The notes under the pieces were generated by a model that saw only the letters and a program-made list of their open reading frames with translations, ran no database searches and was not told where the DNA came from. This document shows, piece after piece, positions 17,485-25,609 of a stretch of DNA of 37,815 nucleotides. The stretch is from Actinomycetes bacterium (GTDB lineage: Bacteria; Actinomycetota; Acidimicrobiia; Acidimicrobiales; JAMCPL01), in contig JAJZWU010000017.1 of assembly GCA_021846515.1 (NCBI GenBank), forward strand, positions 1 through 37,815, written 5' to 3'. The position numbers were made by a program, and so were the translations under genes. How positions within the stretch are numbered: position 1 is the stretch's first letter; every line of letters begins with the position of its first letter.

Positions 17485-17505
17485 GTCTCGTAAATAGTGT
17501 TATGG
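17485..17505 (+). repeat. Degenerate copy A of a short intergenic element
   Basis: GTCTCGTAAATAGTGTTATGG resembles the core of copies B (18081-18115) and C (31765-31799) after a 3-nt gap. It lies between the 189-aa unknown and the HNH gene, in the same orientation as the other copies. The match is weaker than that between B and C. Confidence 0.4.
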
Positions 17506-17530
17506 TATTCACTTGGTCGCTACATTGTGT

Positions 17531-17536
17531 TACTAT
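17531..17536 (+). promoter_or_regulatory. -10 element for a probably leaderless HNH mRNA
   Basis: TACTAT is followed by exactly 7 nt and then ATG 17544. No SD is present. The spacing supports ATG 17544 over the upstream in-frame ATG at 17502, which would lie before this promoter. Confidence 0.45.
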
Positions 17537-17543
17537 ATTTATT

Positions 17544-18080
17544 ATGGGATATGACGGCATGGGAGCTGGTAGCGGTAGGCGTGCGCTGGTATTGAACGCC
17601 ACCTATGAGCCGCTCTCGGTGGTGTCGTCTCGGCGGGCTCTGCTGCTTGTGATAGCCACCAAGGCGGAGCTGATTCATCCAACCAGCAGGTTCTACAGAT
17701 CGGAGAGTTTTAGTTTTCCGGAGCCCTCGATAGTCAAGCTGTCGCATTATGTGCGCGTACCTCATGACAGGGGAGTGGCATTGAACCGGCGTACCCTCTT
17801 TGCACGAGATCATGGGCGATGTCAGTACTGCGGTAAACCGGCGGAGAGTATAGACCACGTTGTTCCTCGCAGTAGAGGAGGCCGTCATTCATGGGATAAT
17901 GTGGTTGCAGCCTGCAAGTACTGCAATATGCGCAAAACAGATAGATTGCCTCATGAGGTGGGATTCGTGCTTGCCAAAACTCCTGCTGTTCCAAAGAGGA
18001 AGGTGTGGCTTATTGCTCTAAGTGGTAACGCGCCTGAAGAGTGGATGCAGTATCTGGACGAAGAGTCGCTCAGTGCTTAG
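17544..18080 (+). CDS. HNH endonuclease-domain protein
   Basis: The 178-aa protein (from ATG 17544) has an N-terminal domain starting ALVLNATYEPLSVVSSRRA, then a zinc-stabilised HNH nuclease fold: Cys93 and Cys96, Asp104-His105 (IDHVVPRSRGG), Asn119, Cys124 and Cys127. This architecture is widespread and usually single-copy in actinobacteria, where it appears to be a housekeeping nuclease rather than a phage or intron enzyme. The frame extends to 17502, but the extension lacks similarity to the usual start and lies before the -10-like hexamer. Its cellular role is not established. Element B begins directly after its stop codon. Confidence 0.85.
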   Translation: MGYDGMGAGSGRRALVLNATYEPLSVVSSRRALLLVIATKAELIHPTSRFYRSESFSFPEPSIVKLSHYVRVPHDRGVALNRRTLFARDHGRCQYCGKPAESIDHVVPRSRGGRHSWDNVVAACKYCNMRKTDRLPHEVGFVLAKTPAVPKRKVWLIALSGNAPEEWMQYLDEESLSA

Positions 18081-18115: not shown

Positions 18116-18199
18116 GTATCAGAGGTGTCGCTTGACTGGAGGGGTACAGGTTTCGTCTACAAGCGCAGGAGGAGATAACACCATAGGTAGTGGCTATTG

Positions 18200-18994
18200 A
18201 TGTTACCTGGAGGTGATTCGGCATGGAGGATAGAGACCAGGCTGGATACCGCCGATCGGCTTCATATGAAGTGGCCTCCACCGGAATTGATGCATTCAAG
18301 AGTGGTGGCATTCAGTAATGTATCTCATGCAGCGGTAGTGCTTGGAAGTACTCAGAGATTAAAAATAGCTGGGCATATTGAATCGGCTGGTATCAGTTGG
18401 AACGAGTTGGCCGATGGTAGTTGCAGGGAGATTGAAGTGATCAGCCGCTCCAGCGGCGGCGGTGCGGTATATGTAGCTCCCGCTGAACAGCTATGGGTCG
18501 ATTTCTGGCTACCGAAAGATGATATGTGGTTCGACAGCGACATATTGAGATCGTCCGTATGGGTGGGGAATATATGGGCAAAAGCCTTGAATAGCATTGG
18601 GGTGCAAGATATTCGCATACATGAAGGGCGTCTTATCCCGGGAGAATGGGGATCGTTGGTATGTTTTGCCTCTACCGGTCCCGGTGAGGTATTTTACGGA
18701 ACGCGTAAGGTGGTAGGCATCTCCCAGCGCAGAACAAGAGACGGTATATGGTTCCAGACGATGGCGCCATTACGATGGGAGCCCGGCAAATGGATACCCT
18801 GCATGTTGCCCTATCTGGAATTGCTCATAGCAGAAGAGCACGGATCAAGGAAGCGATTGGATACTGTTGCGCTGGATGCATGGCTTATGGAGCATGTAGT
18901 GTTGTTGGGCGAACTCGGCGGTTTCAAGTATCCCGACGATGGAACGGCCGTACATGCTATTGCTGGCGAGTTGGTTGCAAACTTACCGGCTTGA
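18200..18994 (+). CDS. Lipoate/biotin-ligase-family protein (LplA-like)
   Basis: The 264-aa protein has the lipoate-protein ligase core: SRSSGGGAVYV (about residues 81-91), which binds the acyl-adenylate, the VCFASTGPGEV segment, and the lysine-bearing RKVVGISQRRTRDG (about 168-181). Proteins of this fold attach lipoate, octanoate or biotin to carrier domains, or move fatty acyl groups. The actinobacterial subgroup with ISQRRTRDG is not assigned to a substrate as far as I know. TTG 18197 is an alternative start directly before ATG 18200; no good SD precedes either. No lipoyl-domain enzyme or lipA/lipB is nearby. Confidence 0.75.
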   Translation: MLPGGDSAWRIETRLDTADRLHMKWPPPELMHSRVVAFSNVSHAAVVLGSTQRLKIAGHIESAGISWNELADGSCREIEVISRSSGGGAVYVAPAEQLWVDFWLPKDDMWFDSDILRSSVWVGNIWAKALNSIGVQDIRIHEGRLIPGEWGSLVCFASTGPGEVFYGTRKVVGISQRRTRDGIWFQTMAPLRWEPGKWIPCMLPYLELLIAEEHGSRKRLDTVALDAWLMEHVVLLGELGGFKYPDDGTAVHAIAGELVANLPA

Positions 18995-19158
18995 ACCTGC
19001 CAGCTTGGCTCTCCAAAATCCCTGAACGTCAAGACTGCCCAAGTGCATATTGGCTACCGTCGCGCACATCTCATACATCTCATGTACAGATACCGGCTGC
19101 CGCTATTCCACCTCTGTATATTCCGGCTGTTGTAGAGGGCAACTGATTACGTAGATAC

Positions 19159-19190
19159 TTGAACAGAGTGTGAAAAATAATCGGTAATAT
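19159..19190 (+). promoter_or_regulatory. Promoter candidate for the dcw cluster
   Basis: TTGAAC at 19159-19164 could be a -35. The -10 could be GGTAAT at 19183-19188 (18-bp spacer) or TAATAT at 19185-19190 (20-bp spacer). It ends about 17 bp before the first clear MraZ-type box, so the boxes would cover the transcription start. Confidence 0.35.
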
Positions 19191-19206
19191 CCACCACTGG
19201 GGTATG

Positions 19207-19233
19207 AAGTGGTGTAAAGTGGGTCGAAGTGGT
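19207..19233 (+). promoter_or_regulatory. Three-box MraZ operator candidate
   Basis: AAGTGGT, AAGTGGG and AAGTGGT start at 19207, 19217 and 19227, an exact 10-bp period, all in direct orientation. A degenerate fourth unit (CTGGGG) sits one period upstream. MraZ is known to bind direct repeats of TGGG- or AAAGTGG-type boxes with about one helical turn between them, upstream of its own gene. mraZ starts 78 bp downstream. Confidence 0.65.
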
Positions 19234-19310
19234 ATATCAGGGAGGCAAAATCTCTCTGAGTGGGATAATGATACCGAGAAGAGAAGCGAAAGGTTGGAGA
19301 GGTAGAGTAG

Positions 19311-19733
19311 ATGGAAGGGTTTTTCGGTCGCTATGACCATAAGCTCGACAGTAAGGGAAGGTTAACGTTGCCCTCCCGGTTCTGCAACGCCTTTGAAGAT
19401 GGAGCTTTCATCTCTTCCTATCTGGGTGGCTGCCTGGCACTTTGGACGCCGGTAGAGTTTGGCATCAGAATGCGCGAGATGCAGGAGAAGGCATCCACCT
19501 CTGCAAAGTGGCGCAATTTGGTACGTGTGTGGGCGGCTGGAACGTACCAAGCCGAGAAGGACGGCCAAGCCAGAATCATTATTCCACCTCACCTCAGGGA
19601 GTTTGCCGACATTGCTTCAGAGGTGGTCATCTCGGGTGCAATCGATCATATAGAGATATGGAATCCATTGCGCTGGAGAGAACTGGAAGAACCGCAGGAG
19701 AGGATGCTTATCTTGGGGGAGCAGGATATATGA
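19311..19733 (+). CDS. mraZ: MraZ, transcriptional regulator of the dcw cluster
   Basis: The 140-aa protein has the two tandem swapped-hairpin domains of MraZ. Each half shows the DxKxR-type motif: DHKLDSKGRLTLPSRF at about residues 9-24, and the counterpart QAEKDGQARIIIPPHLREF at about 80-98. MraZ forms a ring-shaped oligomer that binds repeated boxes and represses the first dcw promoter. Such a set of boxes lies 78 bp upstream, consistent with autoregulation. A GGAGAGGTAGAG sequence precedes the ATG. The stop codon overlaps the rsmH start (ATGA). Length is normal for the family. Confidence 0.96.
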   Translation: MEGFFGRYDHKLDSKGRLTLPSRFCNAFEDGAFISSYLGGCLALWTPVEFGIRMREMQEKASTSAKWRNLVRVWAAGTYQAEKDGQARIIIPPHLREFADIASEVVISGAIDHIEIWNPLRWRELEEPQERMLILGEQDI

Positions 19734-20695
19734 CTTCATATCACTTACCGGTGATGGCAGAGACGGTAGTAAAACTTTTCTCACATTGTCCTAATGGCTG
19801 CATAGTGGATGCAACTGTCGGCACGGGTGGGCATGCAGAAGCAATTTTACTTTCCAACGATTCAATACATGTAGTCGGTATTGACCGGGATAGTAGTGTA
19901 CTGGAACTCTGCAGAGTACGCCTTGAAAGGTTTGGCAATAGGATCAAGCTTATCCAGGGCAGATTTTCCCAGATTGAGAGGCTGCTGGGCGAGATAGGTG
20001 TGGGAAGCTCTCAGGCTGCCGGAATACTACTGGATTTGGGTCTCAACTCGTTACAGGTAGATACACCAGGTAGGGGCTTCTCCTATATGGTGGATGGTCC
20101 GCTTGACATGCGTATGGATGCAACTCAAGGTATCGCTGCGTCAGATCTGGTAAATGAGGCCACAGAAGATGAATTGGTAGAGCTGTTTCGTGCAAACGGC
20201 GAATATCAAAATGCACGAAGAGTGTCTAGGGCTATAATTGCATCAAGGCCGTTGCATAGCACGACACAACTGGTGGATGTAATAGACAGGGCAGTATCCG
20301 GCAGCGCTCGTAAGCGTAAGGGTCACGTGGCAAAACGTTTCTTTCAGGCGATGCGCGTATATGTGAATGAAGAGCAGGCAGAACTGGCCACGGTGCTGGA
20401 TGCATCTATGCGTTTACTGTCTGACGGGGGATATCTGATCACGATATCTTATCATTCCGGAGAAGATGGCATGATCAAGGCATTTATGAGGTACGCAGAG
20501 ACAGGAGGCTGCCAGTGTCCTCCTCAGTTGCCCTGTAGGTGTGGGGCGGTATCACTGGGAAGGATGGTCTTTAGAGGAGTGCGTAAACCTACTCGCGATG
20601 AGATAGACAATAACCCACGGGCGAAGAGTGCGAAGTTGCGTGCATTTGAGCGGGTGATTTCGGCGACAGGAGAGAGAGAAGGGAGAGAACTGTGA
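19730..20695 (+). CDS. rsmH: 16S rRNA m4C1402 methyltransferase
   Basis: RsmH adds the N4-methyl group to C1402 in the ribosomal P site. The open frame extends back into mraZ, but ATG 19730 overlaps the mraZ stop by 4 nt and begins with the family's usual HLPVMAETVV, so it is the start (321 aa). SAM binding is shown by DATVGTGGHAEAIL (about residues 28-41) and GIDRD; the LDLGLNSLQVD and RGFSYMVDGPLDMRM blocks are also typical. The family's SYHSLED appears here as SYHSGEDG, a small departure. The C-terminal part contains a Cys-rich GGCQCPPQLPCRCG segment. Translation is probably coupled to mraZ and to the next gene (GTGA overlap). Confidence 0.95.
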   Translation: MTSYHLPVMAETVVKLFSHCPNGCIVDATVGTGGHAEAILLSNDSIHVVGIDRDSSVLELCRVRLERFGNRIKLIQGRFSQIERLLGEIGVGSSQAAGILLDLGLNSLQVDTPGRGFSYMVDGPLDMRMDATQGIAASDLVNEATEDELVELFRANGEYQNARRVSRAIIASRPLHSTTQLVDVIDRAVSGSARKRKGHVAKRFFQAMRVYVNEEQAELATVLDASMRLLSDGGYLITISYHSGEDGMIKAFMRYAETGGCQCPPQLPCRCGAVSLGRMVFRGVRKPTRDEIDNNPRAKSAKLRAFERVISATGEREGREL

Positions 20696-21294
20696 AAACT
20701 GCACAATCCGTTGAAACCAGGAGAACCAAAAAATGTGCACAATCCGTAAAACCTGCAAAATCAAGTAAATCAGTACAATCTGTCAGATCTACAAAATCAG
20801 TGGGCACATCCGGTAAATCGACCAGAAGTCAGTCCATGTCGGGCAGGAAAGTTGTAAAACACAGGAAAGCGTTGCTGCCTGGTTGGGTGGTCATTACGTG
20901 CGGTGTTCTATTCGTCATTGGTAGCGTGTTGTTGGTGCTGGCCGGTGAAGCGTTGCTCACTTCCAGGCAGGTATCTGTAGGTCAACTGCAGGATAGCCTG
21001 CAATCCAAAGAGGCATTGCACAACGATTTTTCTACGCAGGTAGGCTTACTCAGTCAGCCTGACCGCCTGCTGTCTGCGGCACTCTCTGGCTCTTCGGGCA
21101 AGTTATCAAACCCAAGTGGACCAACCGCTCCCAGTCGTTCCTCGCATTCCGCAGCAGGAGCACATGGGGCAGTACGCTCCGGTGGCGGATTATTGCACCA
21201 GCCTTCCCAAAAATTAAAGTCAAATAGTGGTCAATTACTTGCTACTCCATCAGATGGACATCACCGGTTCTCGTCCAAAGTACTTGCGGGGTAA
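20692..21294 (+). CDS. ftsL: FtsL-like bitopic division protein
   Basis: Position between rsmH and ftsI, a single membrane helix (about residues 64-85) and a short periplasmic helical stretch (about 92-115) identify an FtsL-like protein, which in other bacteria joins the FtsQ-FtsB complex and activates FtsW/FtsI. The GTG start overlaps the rsmH stop (GTGA). At 200 aa it is longer than typical FtsL. The cytoplasmic part is a Lys/Ser/Thr low-complexity tract with repeated QSV and KSV units, and the outer tail of about 85 residues is rich in Ser, Gly, His and Pro. Sequence identity to FtsL families is low, as is normal, so the call rests on topology and context. Confidence 0.75.
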   Translation: MKTAQSVETRRTKKCAQSVKPAKSSKSVQSVRSTKSVGTSGKSTRSQSMSGRKVVKHRKALLPGWVVITCGVLFVIGSVLLVLAGEALLTSRQVSVGQLQDSLQSKEALHNDFSTQVGLLSQPDRLLSAALSGSSGKLSNPSGPTAPSRSSHSAAGAHGAVRSGGGLLHQPSQKLKSNSGQLLATPSDGHHRFSSKVLAG

Positions 21295-21297
21295 GGT

Positions 21298-23118
21298 ATG
21301 CGTAAGACTCCACTACCGAAAAAGAGAATAAGCTTTATTACAATTGGTATCTTGCTGGCATTTCTGGTGCTGCTGGTGAGGCTTGTTTATGTTCAGGTTG
21401 TTCATGCTCCCGTATATGCTGCTTATGGCAGGAATGAGTTGGCTCAGAGGGTCTATGTTCCGGCAATTCGGGGACCTATTTATGCGCGTGATGGTAGGTT
21501 GCTTGCCGAATCCGTACAGCGGGAAGATATTGTGGCTGATCCATTCCTTATAACTGATCCTGCAGCCGATGCAGCCAAACTGGCATCTTTATTGGGAGAG
21601 AAGGCAGGTACGCTTACTGCGCTGATGAACGAGAAGAGCGGCTATGTTGTAATAGCTACCGATCTGGCTCAGTCTACGGCTACCAGTGTCATGAATCTGG
21701 GATTGGCAGGTATTACTACCCAATCGGTGAGCGTCAGGATATATCCTGCAGGATCGTTGGCACAGCCGGTTATCGGGACAGTGAATTGGCAGGGGCAGGG
21801 TGCCGCAGGTCTTGAGTACCAGTATAATGCTCTACTTTCTGGACACTCGGGATGGGATAGTGAGTCCTACACTCCAGATGGAGTCCCTTTGCCTGGGGGA
21901 AGCCATGTCATTAAGCCGGCCGTGAACGGTACCGGATTGGAATTGACCATAGACGAGCCACTTCAGTATGCAACCGAAGAGGCGTTGGCATCCGAGTTGC
22001 AGAAACAACGAGCCACCGGTGGAGCCGCCATAGTAATGGATGTACATACCGGAGCGATACTTGCAATGGCGAGCCTGGACTCGAATCCCAAAACTCGCAG
22101 CGTAACTGAGGCACCAAACAATATTGCTACCGACCTGGTGTACGAGCCGGGGTCGGTATTCAAGATAGTCAGTTTCTCTGCAATGCTGCAAGATGGCATA
22201 ATAACGCCAAACACTATGGTTACTATTCCTCCGTATCTGGATTTGGGAGGCTGGACATTTCACGATGCATGGTCTCATGGCACCATTCACTACAGTGCCA
22301 CACAGGTCATTGCGTACTCTTCCAACCTTGGTACCATACTGTTAACTCAGAAGTTGGGTGCAAATCGGCTTGCCCAGCAGACTTCAGCTCTTGGATTCGG
22401 TCATCCTACGGGACTCAACTTTCCTGGTGCTTCTCCTGGAATAGTCAATCCGGTATCGCAATGGTCTGCGTCAGCAATGGGGTCCACCCCGATAGGGGAG
22501 GATACGGGAGTGACACCCATGCAGCTGTTGGACGCTATGAACACAGTGGCAAACGGTGGAGTGTTTGTGGCTCCACGACTGGTAAGAGCAGAGATATCAC
22601 CGACTGGCAAATTGGTCAAGATGCCGGCACCTGCTACGCATCGCGTATTTAGTAAAAACGTAGCAAGTGAATTGTCTGGTATGCTCGAAAGGGTAGTTAT
22701 GTATGGTACTGGAGTCAAAGCTGGCGTACCCGGATATGATGTGTCCGGAAAGACCGGAACATCTAAAGTAACCAGTCAACATGGCGGAGGATATGTCCCC
22801 GGAGCATACTGGGGTACATTCTGCGGATTCCTGCCATCGCAGGATCCGGTATTATCTGCTTGTGTCGTGATCGATCAGCCGGATCAGTATTTTGGTGGCT
22901 CTGCGGCTGCGCCGGTTTTCAGCCAAATTATGCAGTACGCAGTTCACCGTTTCAATGTTCCAGAGACACCGGGGGGATGGATTACCGGAGGGAAGTACCG
23001 TCCCATAAACTTTCCATCAGTTGGCGGGCCCAATCCTTATGGTTATTTCGATCCGCTTGGCTCACTGCGCTCGCAGGTAAGCGCGGCAGTGGATGGCAGG
23101 GGTACCAGGCTGGGATAG
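21298..23118 (+). CDS. ftsI: Septal peptidoglycan transpeptidase, PBP3
   Basis: FtsI cross-links septal peptidoglycan in partnership with FtsW. The 606-aa class B PBP has one N-terminal membrane anchor (about residues 11-34), the dimerisation domain starting RGPIYARDGRLLAES, and a transpeptidase domain with Ser286-x-x-Lys289 (EPGSVFKIV), Ser341-Ser342-Asn343 and Lys485-Thr-Gly-Thr488. All catalytic motifs are intact. No PASTA domain is visible; the protein ends with a Gly/Pro-rich tail of about 60 residues. It starts 3 nt after the FtsL-like stop and ends 2 nt before murE. Confidence 0.96.
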   Translation: MRKTPLPKKRISFITIGILLAFLVLLVRLVYVQVVHAPVYAAYGRNELAQRVYVPAIRGPIYARDGRLLAESVQREDIVADPFLITDPAADAAKLASLLGEKAGTLTALMNEKSGYVVIATDLAQSTATSVMNLGLAGITTQSVSVRIYPAGSLAQPVIGTVNWQGQGAAGLEYQYNALLSGHSGWDSESYTPDGVPLPGGSHVIKPAVNGTGLELTIDEPLQYATEEALASELQKQRATGGAAIVMDVHTGAILAMASLDSNPKTRSVTEAPNNIATDLVYEPGSVFKIVSFSAMLQDGIITPNTMVTIPPYLDLGGWTFHDAWSHGTIHYSATQVIAYSSNLGTILLTQKLGANRLAQQTSALGFGHPTGLNFPGASPGIVNPVSQWSASAMGSTPIGEDTGVTPMQLLDAMNTVANGGVFVAPRLVRAEISPTGKLVKMPAPATHRVFSKNVASELSGMLERVVMYGTGVKAGVPGYDVSGKTGTSKVTSQHGGGYVPGAYWGTFCGFLPSQDPVLSACVVIDQPDQYFGGSAAAPVFSQIMQYAVHRFNVPETPGGWITGGKYRPINFPSVGGPNPYGYFDPLGSLRSQVSAAVDGRGTRLG

Positions 23119-23120
23119 CC

Positions 23121-24578
23121 ATGATGCTGGCTGACCTGCTAGAGGGATTGAATGAAGTGGATGTAGCCTGTTATCCTGCCGGAGCCTCTATCCAGGATCT
23201 CAACATATCGTCTATCGAGTACGACTCGCGTAGCGTAATAGATGGCTCCCTCTTCTGTTGCCTTGTAGGGCAGCATGCAGATGGGCACGATTTTGCTTCA
23301 CAGGCAATAAGCAGCGGAGCCCGCGTATTACTGGTGGAGCGGCGATTGGCGTTACCGATAGCGCAGGTAATTGTCGGAGAAGGCAATGCTAGACCTGCCA
23401 TGGCAGTGATGTCAGCCAACTTTTACCGTCATCCATCAAGATCGTTGGTTATGGTAGGCGTAACAGGAACCAACGGCAAGACTACTGTTACTCATATGGT
23501 CGCATCGATTTTAGAAGCCAGCGGTATGCCTGTACGAGTAATTGGTACATTGGGGGGTGCCAGGACTACCCCCGAATCCCCTGATCTTCAAAGGATGCTT
23601 GCAGATGCTGTTACCTCGGGAACGAAAGCGGTATCCATGGAAGTGTCCTCTCATGGTATTGTTCAGCATAGGGTAGACGATATCCATTTTAATGTGGCCG
23701 TATTTACCAATCTTTCTCCTGAGCATCTTGATTTCCATGCAACTATGAGTGATTACTTTGAGGCAAAGGCTGCACTCTTTACTCCCGATAGAGTTGATAC
23801 TGCGGTCATCTACACTGGAGATGAGTGGGGTCGGTCACTTGTCGGCAGGGTATCTGGTATGGATGTCTTGACCTTTAATGACAGCGATATAAGTGATGTC
23901 TCTATAGGTGCATCGGGTAGTTCATTCGTTATAGACGGTATGCCAATTTACATTCCCATGATAGGAGTACACAATATACGCAATGGAGTTGCGGCAATTC
24001 GTGTCGCTCAATCCCTTGGAATATCACATGATGCAATATTAGATGGTTTGGCAGGGATGCCTCCGTTGCCTGGCAGGTTTAATACACACGAAATGTCCGG
24101 AGATCGTCTGGTGGTAGTGGATTTTGCCCATACCCCCGAGGCTTTGGAGGAACTGTTGAAATCGGCTCGCCAGCTGGTATCTGCGCCGGGTGAAAAGGTT
24201 ATATGTGTCTTTGGGTGTGGCGGGAATAGGGACAGACTGAAGAGGCCAGATATGGGTAAGGTGGCATCTCTGTTGGCGGATAGAGTCATATTGACATCAG
24301 ACAACTCACGGTACGAAGAGCCTGAAGACATCATCCGGGAGATTATAGACGGGGTGGATGAACAGAATCGTGACAGGGTAGAGGTGTATATAGATCGGCG
24401 TGAGGCAATAGAGCATGCTATTGGATCTCTTGGTATTGGTGATGTGGCCGTGGTCGCCGGAAAGGGACACGAAACTACCATGGAGTTCAAGGGGCAGATA
24501 TCGCACTTTGATGATTCCGAGGTCGTTCGTAGCTGTATAGACACCATCGAGTCTGGAGGTTTGCCATGCTGGGCCTGA
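23121..24578 (+). CDS. murE: UDP-MurNAc-tripeptide synthetase
   Basis: MurE adds the third peptide residue to UDP-MurNAc-L-Ala-D-Glu. The frame is open far upstream inside ftsI, but the family's normal start falls at ATG 23121 (or 23124), 2 nt after the ftsI stop, giving 485 aa. It shows the ATP loop GTNGKTT (116-122), the substrate segment SMEVSSHGIVQHRV, and the central NLSPEHLDFH. The amino-acid-selecting motif is DNSRYEEP (394-397 = DNSR). The Arg that binds meso-diaminopimelate is kept, but the Pro of the canonical DNPR is Ser, so meso-DAP is likely rather than certain. The gene overlaps mraY by 13 nt. Confidence 0.95.
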   Translation: MMLADLLEGLNEVDVACYPAGASIQDLNISSIEYDSRSVIDGSLFCCLVGQHADGHDFASQAISSGARVLLVERRLALPIAQVIVGEGNARPAMAVMSANFYRHPSRSLVMVGVTGTNGKTTVTHMVASILEASGMPVRVIGTLGGARTTPESPDLQRMLADAVTSGTKAVSMEVSSHGIVQHRVDDIHFNVAVFTNLSPEHLDFHATMSDYFEAKAALFTPDRVDTAVIYTGDEWGRSLVGRVSGMDVLTFNDSDISDVSIGASGSSFVIDGMPIYIPMIGVHNIRNGVAAIRVAQSLGISHDAILDGLAGMPPLPGRFNTHEMSGDRLVVVDFAHTPEALEELLKSARQLVSAPGEKVICVFGCGGNRDRLKRPDMGKVASLLADRVILTSDNSRYEEPEDIIREIIDGVDEQNRDRVEVYIDRREAIEHAIGSLGIGDVAVVAGKGHETTMEFKGQISHFDDSEVVRSCIDTIESGGLPCWA

Positions 24579-25609
24579 TGGTTGCAGGCGGTATTGCACT
24601 TATAGTTGCTGCATTCCTTACTCCATTACTAAGGCGTTGGCTGGTGAGTAGGTCGATTGGGCAGTATATCAGGGAGGATGGGCCTTCCATGCATAGATCT
24701 AAAGAGGGCACTCCCACAATGGGCGGAATAACACTGTTAGTTGCTATATTCGTGGGATATATAGTGGCGCATCTGGCAACTGTGGTTCGCATGAGTACAA
24801 GTGGCATGCTGGTTGTCGGTCTTGCAATATCATTTGGGCTGATTGGGCTGGTAGATGACTGGCTGAAGGTGCATAACAAGAGGAATCTTGGGCTGAACAA
24901 GCGTGCTAAACTAATAGCGCAAGTCGTTGTAGCTTTGTTATTTGCATTGGGCGCAGAGAAACTTGCACATGCCAATACCTTCCTTACTTATACAAGATTT
25001 AATTCTACTGGAATAAATCTTGGGACGATTGGTTGGATAGTGTGGGTTATGCTTATCGTGATTGGTTCTTCCAATGCTGTGAACTTGACTGATGGTCTTG
25101 ATGGGCTAGCGGCTGGTTCATTGACACTGGTATTCGCCGTTCTCTCGATAATAGGGTACTGGCAGTTCCGGCATTTCAGTATATATAGGGTATCTTCGTC
25201 GTTGGATCTGAGCTTGGCATCTGTAGCTTTTGCTGGGGCATGTGTCGGTTTTTTATGGTGGAATGCCTCCCCAGCACGTATCTTTATGGGTGATACGGGG
25301 TCTCTGGCATTGGGAAGCGGTCTGGCGGGTATCGCCATTATGATGAATCTTCAACTCTTACTACCCATCTTGGGAGGATTGTTTGTCATAGTCACGTTGT
25401 CTGTTGTAGTCCAGGTTATAAGCTACAAATTGTTTCATAGAAGGATTTTCAAGATGGCGCCGCTCCATCACCACTTTGAGCTTAGCGGATGGCCGGAGTC
25501 TACCGTTATAGTACGGTTCTGGATATTGGCAGGACTTTTTGCCGCACTGGCACTGGGGCTGTTCTACGCAGATTACCTATCGATTACCAGGTTGCTGTCG
25601 AAGACATGA
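24566..25609 (+). CDS. mraY: Phospho-MurNAc-pentapeptide transferase
   Basis: MraY transfers phospho-MurNAc-pentapeptide to undecaprenyl phosphate, making lipid I in the membrane. The 347-aa protein has about ten hydrophobic helices and the family's catalytic blocks: GLVDDWLK with the Asp pair, NAVNLTDGLDGLA, FMGDTGSLALG, and the His-rich MAPLHHHFE. It starts inside murE (13-nt overlap) and its stop overlaps the murD start by 4 nt. In most dcw clusters murF lies between murE and mraY; here there is no room for it. Confidence 0.96.
   Translation: MLGLMVAGGIALIVAAFLTPLLRRWLVSRSIGQYIREDGPSMHRSKEGTPTMGGITLLVAIFVGYIVAHLATVVRMSTSGMLVVGLAISFGLIGLVDDWLKVHNKRNLGLNKRAKLIAQVVVALLFALGAEKLAHANTFLTYTRFNSTGINLGTIGWIVWVMLIVIGSSNAVNLTDGLDGLAAGSLTLVFAVLSIIGYWQFRHFSIYRVSSSLDLSLASVAFAGACVGFLWWNASPARIFMGDTGSLALGSGLAGIAIMMNLQLLLPILGGLFVIVTLSVVVQVISYKLFHRRIFKMAPLHHHFELSGWPESTVIVRFWILAGLFAALALGLFYADYLSITRLLSKT

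Follow-up and report, generated by a model that had tools for sequence, protein, structure and literature searches.

Eraso et al. are said to have located the MraZ operator of Escherichia coli at the mraZ promoter in 2014. In the K-12 sequence the boxes follow one another in 10-bp steps and read CAGTGGG, TTGTGGG, AAGTGGG and AAGGGGT. MraZ is presented as a self-repressor of E. coli in one account (PMC8475190), and as an octamer on repeats in two others (PMC5282649, PMC7761207). The mollicute MraZ site is given as (AAAGTGKN3)3, a form attributed to Fisunov et al. 2016 (as cited in PMC5282649 and PMC8475190). In Burkholderia cenocepacia, the MraZ-bound fragment PmraBc contains four 7-nt repeats with 3-nt spacers, according to PMC7761207, where Maeda et al. 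2016 is also cited for MraZ regulation in Corynebacterium glutamicum. Another regulator, MtrA, is stated to bind the mraZ promoter of Dietzia (PMC9602371).

We analysed a stretch of 37,815 nucleotides from an acidimicrobial genome (contig JAJZWU010000017.1 of assembly GCA_021846515.1), which we refer to in full as the window. An array of short direct repeats lies directly upstream of its mraZ gene, at the head of the division and cell-wall (dcw) cluster. A first-pass annotation had reported three AAGTGGK boxes with an exact 10-bp period at this place, and these were recovered by pattern matching on the forward strand: AAGTGGT at 19207-19213 (box 2), AAGTGGG at 19217-19223 (box 3, which overlaps a putative -10 element) and AAGTGGT at 19227-19233 (box 4). 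Their starts are exactly 10 bp apart, and 77 bp separate the end of box 4 from the mraZ ATG. The array is longer than first described, as degenerate boxes on the same strand extend the register on both sides. Box 1, CTGGGG at 19197-19202, starts one 10-bp step ahead of box 2, and box 5, TCAGGG, occupies 19237-19242; they correspond to register positions +5 and +45 in the numbering of the relatives described below. A forward-strand GAGTGGG at 19258-19264, 31 bp beyond box 4, was not counted as part of the core operator, because it is out of register and occurs in only three of the five genus genomes; it probably lies outside.

The region around the boxes is G-rich on the forward strand, as would be expected if the repeats were a product of chance or a low-complexity tract without a regulator. 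We regard this reading as extremely improbable. A 27-base pattern of three boxes, allowing up to three mismatches, matched the window at two overlapping places, both at this array (0 mismatches at 19207, 3 at 19197), and 100 dinucleotide shuffles of the window gave a mean of 0.01 matches and 1 at the most. The shuffles, the gene-body and antisense controls and the conservation presented below speak strongly against a chance tract.

The gene behind the array (19311-19733, forward strand) encodes a 140-aa MraZ, the likely repressor acting on this site. Pfam family PF02381 matched the protein with an E-value of 4.7e-22 in two stretches (78.2 bits, cut-off 23). The first domain contains LDSKGR, and the protein aligned to MraZ chains of the PDB with an E-value of about 1e-13. 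TIGR00242 was still its best NCBIfam match (E 2.5e-22), at a score of 79.4 bits that did not reach the equivalog cut-off of 98.35 bits, and we read the protein, from these scores, as a divergent member of the family. Automatic annotation may leave it unnamed, as the TIGR00242 score is under the cut-off. The second domain has DGQAR at the signature position. A ribosome-binding-site-like GGAGAGG, read by eye, is located on the forward strand at 19296-19302, 8 nt before the ATG.

mraZ is followed by rsmH (mraW; 19730-20695, same strand; PF01795, E 4.8e-88) and then by genes for a penicillin-binding protein, murE, an mraY-type gene, murD, an ftsW-type gene, a murG-type gene, murC, murB and ftsZ; beyond ftsZ come a laccase-domain protein and then sepF. 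The names mraY, ftsW and murG were assigned from Pfam domain and position. Between the murE-type gene and the mraY-type gene that comes directly after it (22860-25609) there is no murF; further matches to Mur-ligase domains lie in other parts of the genome (contigs C29, C25 and C48). A 200-aa open reading frame between rsmH and the penicillin-binding protein gene (20692-21294), for which neither Pfam nor NCBIfam gave a match at E 0.001, occupies the usual place of ftsL. Shortly upstream of the cluster lie a gene for an HNH endonuclease-domain protein (17502-18080; PF01844, E 1.1e-14) and, after it, a lipoate/biotin ligase-like open reading frame (18197-18994).

To describe conservation at close range, the mraZ upstream regions of the window's own genome and of four further genomes of the same genus were aligned. 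Between 18990 and 19169, only 0-2 of 20 columns per block were invariant. A conserved island, about 19173-19245, starts in the block from 19170: the four 20-base blocks of 19170-19249 contained 9, 13, 16 and 10 invariant columns out of 20, the 16 belonging to 19210-19229, and the next blocks 4 and 1. The left border of the island is formed by the A-rich forward-strand block AAAAATAAT (19173-19181), which is largely conserved in the five genomes. Invariant in all five were the TGGGG of box 1, the AGTGG of box 2, the segment AGTGGTGTAAAGTGG (19208-19222) and AGGGAGG (19239-19245), which overlaps box 5. Box 4 was identical in one of the four other genus genomes and had one mismatch in its AAGTGG core in the remaining three.

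At greater distance, 56 out of 59 genomes, the window's own included, had a PF02381 (MraZ) match. Upstream DNA was examined for 55 relatives and for 35 of the 145 matching genomes in a 149-genome sample of the phylum. Each 200-bp stretch preceding the MraZ anchor was searched for the highest-scoring set of three boxes in steps of 10 or 11 bp, with AAGTGG as the reference. A score of 14 or more out of 18 was reached by 36 of 56 genomes (own genome plus 55 relatives) and by 29 of 35 phylum genomes, compared with 1/56 and 1/35 in the antisense control and 2/56 and 0/35 in the gene-body control, for which the first 200 bp of the gene were used. In 34/56 and 26/35 genomes, respectively, the observed score was matched by none of 60 shuffles. 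The genomes below the threshold (20/56 and 6/35) comprise, judged by eye, some artefacts and other, real misses: three were anchored inside the gene (G007, G011 and G017), two carry an array more than 200 bp upstream and hence outside the scored stretch (G005 and G025), and the 'MraZ' of G035 resembles a short AbrB-like protein.

Boxes with at least five of six matches, pooled over the 91 genomes, numbered 330 in sense orientation versus 63 in antisense orientation of the same stretches. A count of box distances, which makes no assumption on spacing, gave sense peaks at 10 bp (94 pairs), 20 bp (56), 30 bp (25) and 31 bp (22); for the distance of 10 bp, the antisense strand gave one pair and the gene-body control two. 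Among the order relatives the base after GTGG is variable, and many of them have an AAGGGGA-like sequence at the position of box 5. The first-pass annotation had interpreted the boxes as an MraZ operator and proposed to look for them in relatives. A lack of conservation there would have spoken against the reading; the boxes are kept in the genus island, in the order relatives and across the phylum sample, which gives good support to a predicted operator of 10-bp period.

For each TTGAC within the 200-bp upstream stretches of the 91 genomes we also recorded the offsets of boxes, accepting as boxes hexamers with at least four of six matches and one of five GTGG-like cores. The offsets were +5 (25 cases), +15 (21), +25 (27), +35 (24) and +45 (12), and no other offset exceeded six cases. 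A TTGAC followed by at least two boxes within 50 bp was present in 41/91 genomes. A promoter-plus-array model, whose form and threshold were set after these counts had been seen, combined TTG, TANNNT after 16-18 bp and five boxes within 400 bp, the first box at +4 to +6 and the others in 10- or 11-bp steps, with a score of at least 19 of 30. It fitted 34 of the 50 relatives that belong to the order but not to the window's family (TTGAC in 25/34, a 17-bp spacer in 29/34) and 17 of the 35 sampled phylum genomes (TTGAC in 6/17), and was not fitted by 16/50 and 18/35, respectively. The antisense control gave 0/91, and none of 20 shuffles of each sequence fitted.

For 27 of 56 genomes a consensus without gaps could be drawn, TTGACnGGTGGGGGnnAGGGGCGTAAnGTGGnGnGAAGTGGnGnGAAnGGGAG; these genomes were selected for TTG and TANNNT, and those letters are consequently imposed. 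In this consensus, the -10 element and box 3 share four bases, with which the former ends and the latter begins. The boxes of many relatives appear to sit on the promoter itself, not behind it. A phase-locked layout of -35 element and MraZ boxes in Actinomycetota was not found in the titles and abstract openings of the literature searched; we do not claim that it is unpublished.

The window aligns to the TTGACnGGTGGGGGnnAGGGGCGTAAnGTGGnGnGAAGTGGnGnGAAnGGGAG consensus without a gap. In this alignment, the -10 column of the 27 selected order relatives falls on a putative -10 hexamer of the form TANNNT, TAAAGT (19215-19220, forward strand), whose last four bases are common to box 3. The hexamer is invariant in all five genus genomes and agrees with TATAAT at only four of six positions, and its conservation may be due simply to its membership of the box. 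At the -35 position of the relatives (19192-19197, forward strand), where TTG and often TTGAC is found, the window reads CACCAC, which is not consensus. None of the six genomes of the window's family fitted the phased TTG plus TANNNT model. G005, which represents the family's second genus, has the array in register with TAGAGT at -10; its TTGATC, displaced upstream by six bases from the expected -35, would give a 23-bp spacer. The promoter assignment, which is drawn from the relatives, is thus weakest in the window's own family. On this assignment, transcription would start near 19227.

Given that the window has no TTG at the phased position, the boxes might instead be preceded by a separate promoter further upstream, and MraZ would then block elongation or the start site in the way seen in E. 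coli and Burkholderia. The first-pass annotation had indeed placed them downstream of a promoter candidate, for which it gave no coordinates. There are precedents for such an arrangement: in E. coli K-12, TTGACA and TAAACT (hexamers identified by eye) precede the boxes, and the B. cenocepacia repeats are described as lying downstream of the -10 and over the start site (PMC7761207). However, a scan for sigma-70-like promoters returned a single site, TAGATA-18-AATAAT, upstream of the array, and shuffles give 0.5. This site is at chance level and not conserved in the genus, and we rejected it as a promoter; TTGAAC at 19159 was rejected as well, since it is not conserved in the genus. The near lack of invariant columns in 18990-19169 also argues against a promoter there, as does the interleaving of TTG and TANNNT with the array in 34/50 order relatives. 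We consider a separate upstream promoter unlikely. A location of the boxes behind a promoter is improbable, and on this point the annotation is not supported: the register shared with the relatives would put them over the -35 and -10 positions, although the window itself has no consensus -35 by which to fix the promoter.

A loss of TTGAC as a genome-wide trait was considered and dismissed. TTGAC-N17..19-TANNNT occurred 148 times in the window's own genome versus 204 times in the reversed control, that is, without enrichment. Among 100 such matches listed, 14 ended in an exact TATAAT (counted by eye), a sign that this genome probably continues to use consensus promoters.

The position of the lost -35 is overlapped by an element on the forward strand, TATCCACC (19188-19195), which is invariant in all five genus genomes; its ATCC is also present in the same columns in G005. 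Together with its left neighbour, the element agrees at seven of nine positions with the DnaA box consensus TTATCCACA; the first and last bases differ. In the 12 kb around dnaA (L183:1-12001) we found neither TTRTCCACA nor NTATCCACC. With misfits at the end bases and no TTRTCCACA near dnaA, the DnaA-box reading is weak. The same 12 kb contained only three TTNTNCACA sites, and TATCCAC has two occurrences in it, one of them in the gap that follows dnaA. In the whole genome, ATCCACC-N17..19-TANNNT occurred 34 times versus 8 in the reversed control, and NTATCCACCNCTGGGG with up to two mismatches 20 times versus 12. Both are excesses, with places inside and outside genes counted together, and we draw no conclusion from either.

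An invariant element at the -35 position could be an activator site, and in Dietzia another regulator, MtrA, is described as binding the mraZ promoter (PMC9602371). MraZ might then be an activator, or the partner of another regulator bound at TATCCACC, and not a simple self-repressor. This is quite improbable in our view: the inferred -10 is covered by boxes, no activator motif was identified in the element, and its similarity to a DnaA box is weak.

We consider it highly probable that the array is the MraZ operator of the dcw cluster, at which MraZ would cover the core promoter and repress its own operon. Most likely it is an ordinary, conserved autoregulatory operator, as far as this can be predicted from DNA sequence. 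Binding of MraZ to the array and repression from it, which we infer, could proceed as follows. Because the repeat is 10 bp long, the boxes are expected on one face of the helix, and an oligomeric MraZ ring would for this reason probably contact several of them at once. Bound MraZ would cover the core promoter serving mraZ, rsmH and the genes downstream, resulting in autorepression. MraZ and RNA polymerase would be mutually exclusive at the array, because the -10-like TAAAGT overlaps box 3 and, in relatives, TTG stands directly before box 1. Since the phased TTG is absent from the window's family, basal transcription there would depend on the -10 by itself, on a different promoter or on some activator at TATCCACC.

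A wider proposal, which we put forward tentatively and hold to be possible but doubtful, is that MraZ operator and dcw core promoter form one composite of fixed phase throughout the actinobacterial phylum. Its elements would be, in order, TTGAC, box 1, box 2, a TA fused to box 3, and boxes 4 and 5. The window's family would have lost the -35 and kept the array together with the invariant TATCCACC, and its dcw transcription would depend on an activator taking over the contacts of the -35.

Further sites for MraZ were sought in the 2.27-Mb assembly. A two-box pattern without mismatch was found at only two places, which overlap and are both part of this array. With one mismatch allowed, the own genome gave 7 matches versus 10 in the reversed control, and a three-box pattern, used on the same genome to look for a regulon outside mraZ, gave 8 versus 11; neither is an excess. 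We do not claim a further MraZ target, and weaker sites may exist.

The array thereby adds a conserved, lineage-wide example of a predicted MraZ operator. It is not the first actinobacterial case of MraZ regulation, as C. glutamicum came earlier according to PMC7761207. With the mollicute site, as quoted in PMC5282649 and PMC8475190, the window shares the 10-bp unit, and its three perfect boxes match AAAGTGK at 6, 7 and 6 of 7 positions; the differences are that base 1 is G in two of the three boxes and that mollicutes belong to another phylum. The first-pass annotation had taken the box to be closer to a mollicute AAAGTGG form than to an E. coli TGGG form. It is correct that TGGG occurs in just one of the window's three perfect boxes, but the opposition of two forms does not stand: the third box of E. 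coli K-12 is AAAGTGGG, and the base after GTGG is variable among the order relatives. For these reasons the two forms are one motif, and the window provides no evidence for a mollicute-like lineage type.

The B. cenocepacia operator resembles that of the window in its 7-nt repeats with 3-nt spacers and differs in that these come after the -10 and overlap the start site (PMC7761207). E. coli shares with the window GTGG boxes every 10 bp directly before mraZ. The E. coli boxes follow TTGACA and TAAACT, whereas those of the window lie over the inferred -10, and, unlike in E. coli, many relatives of the window have boxes also between the -35 and the -10. This phase lock suggests direct competition of MraZ with RNA polymerase rather than a roadblock.
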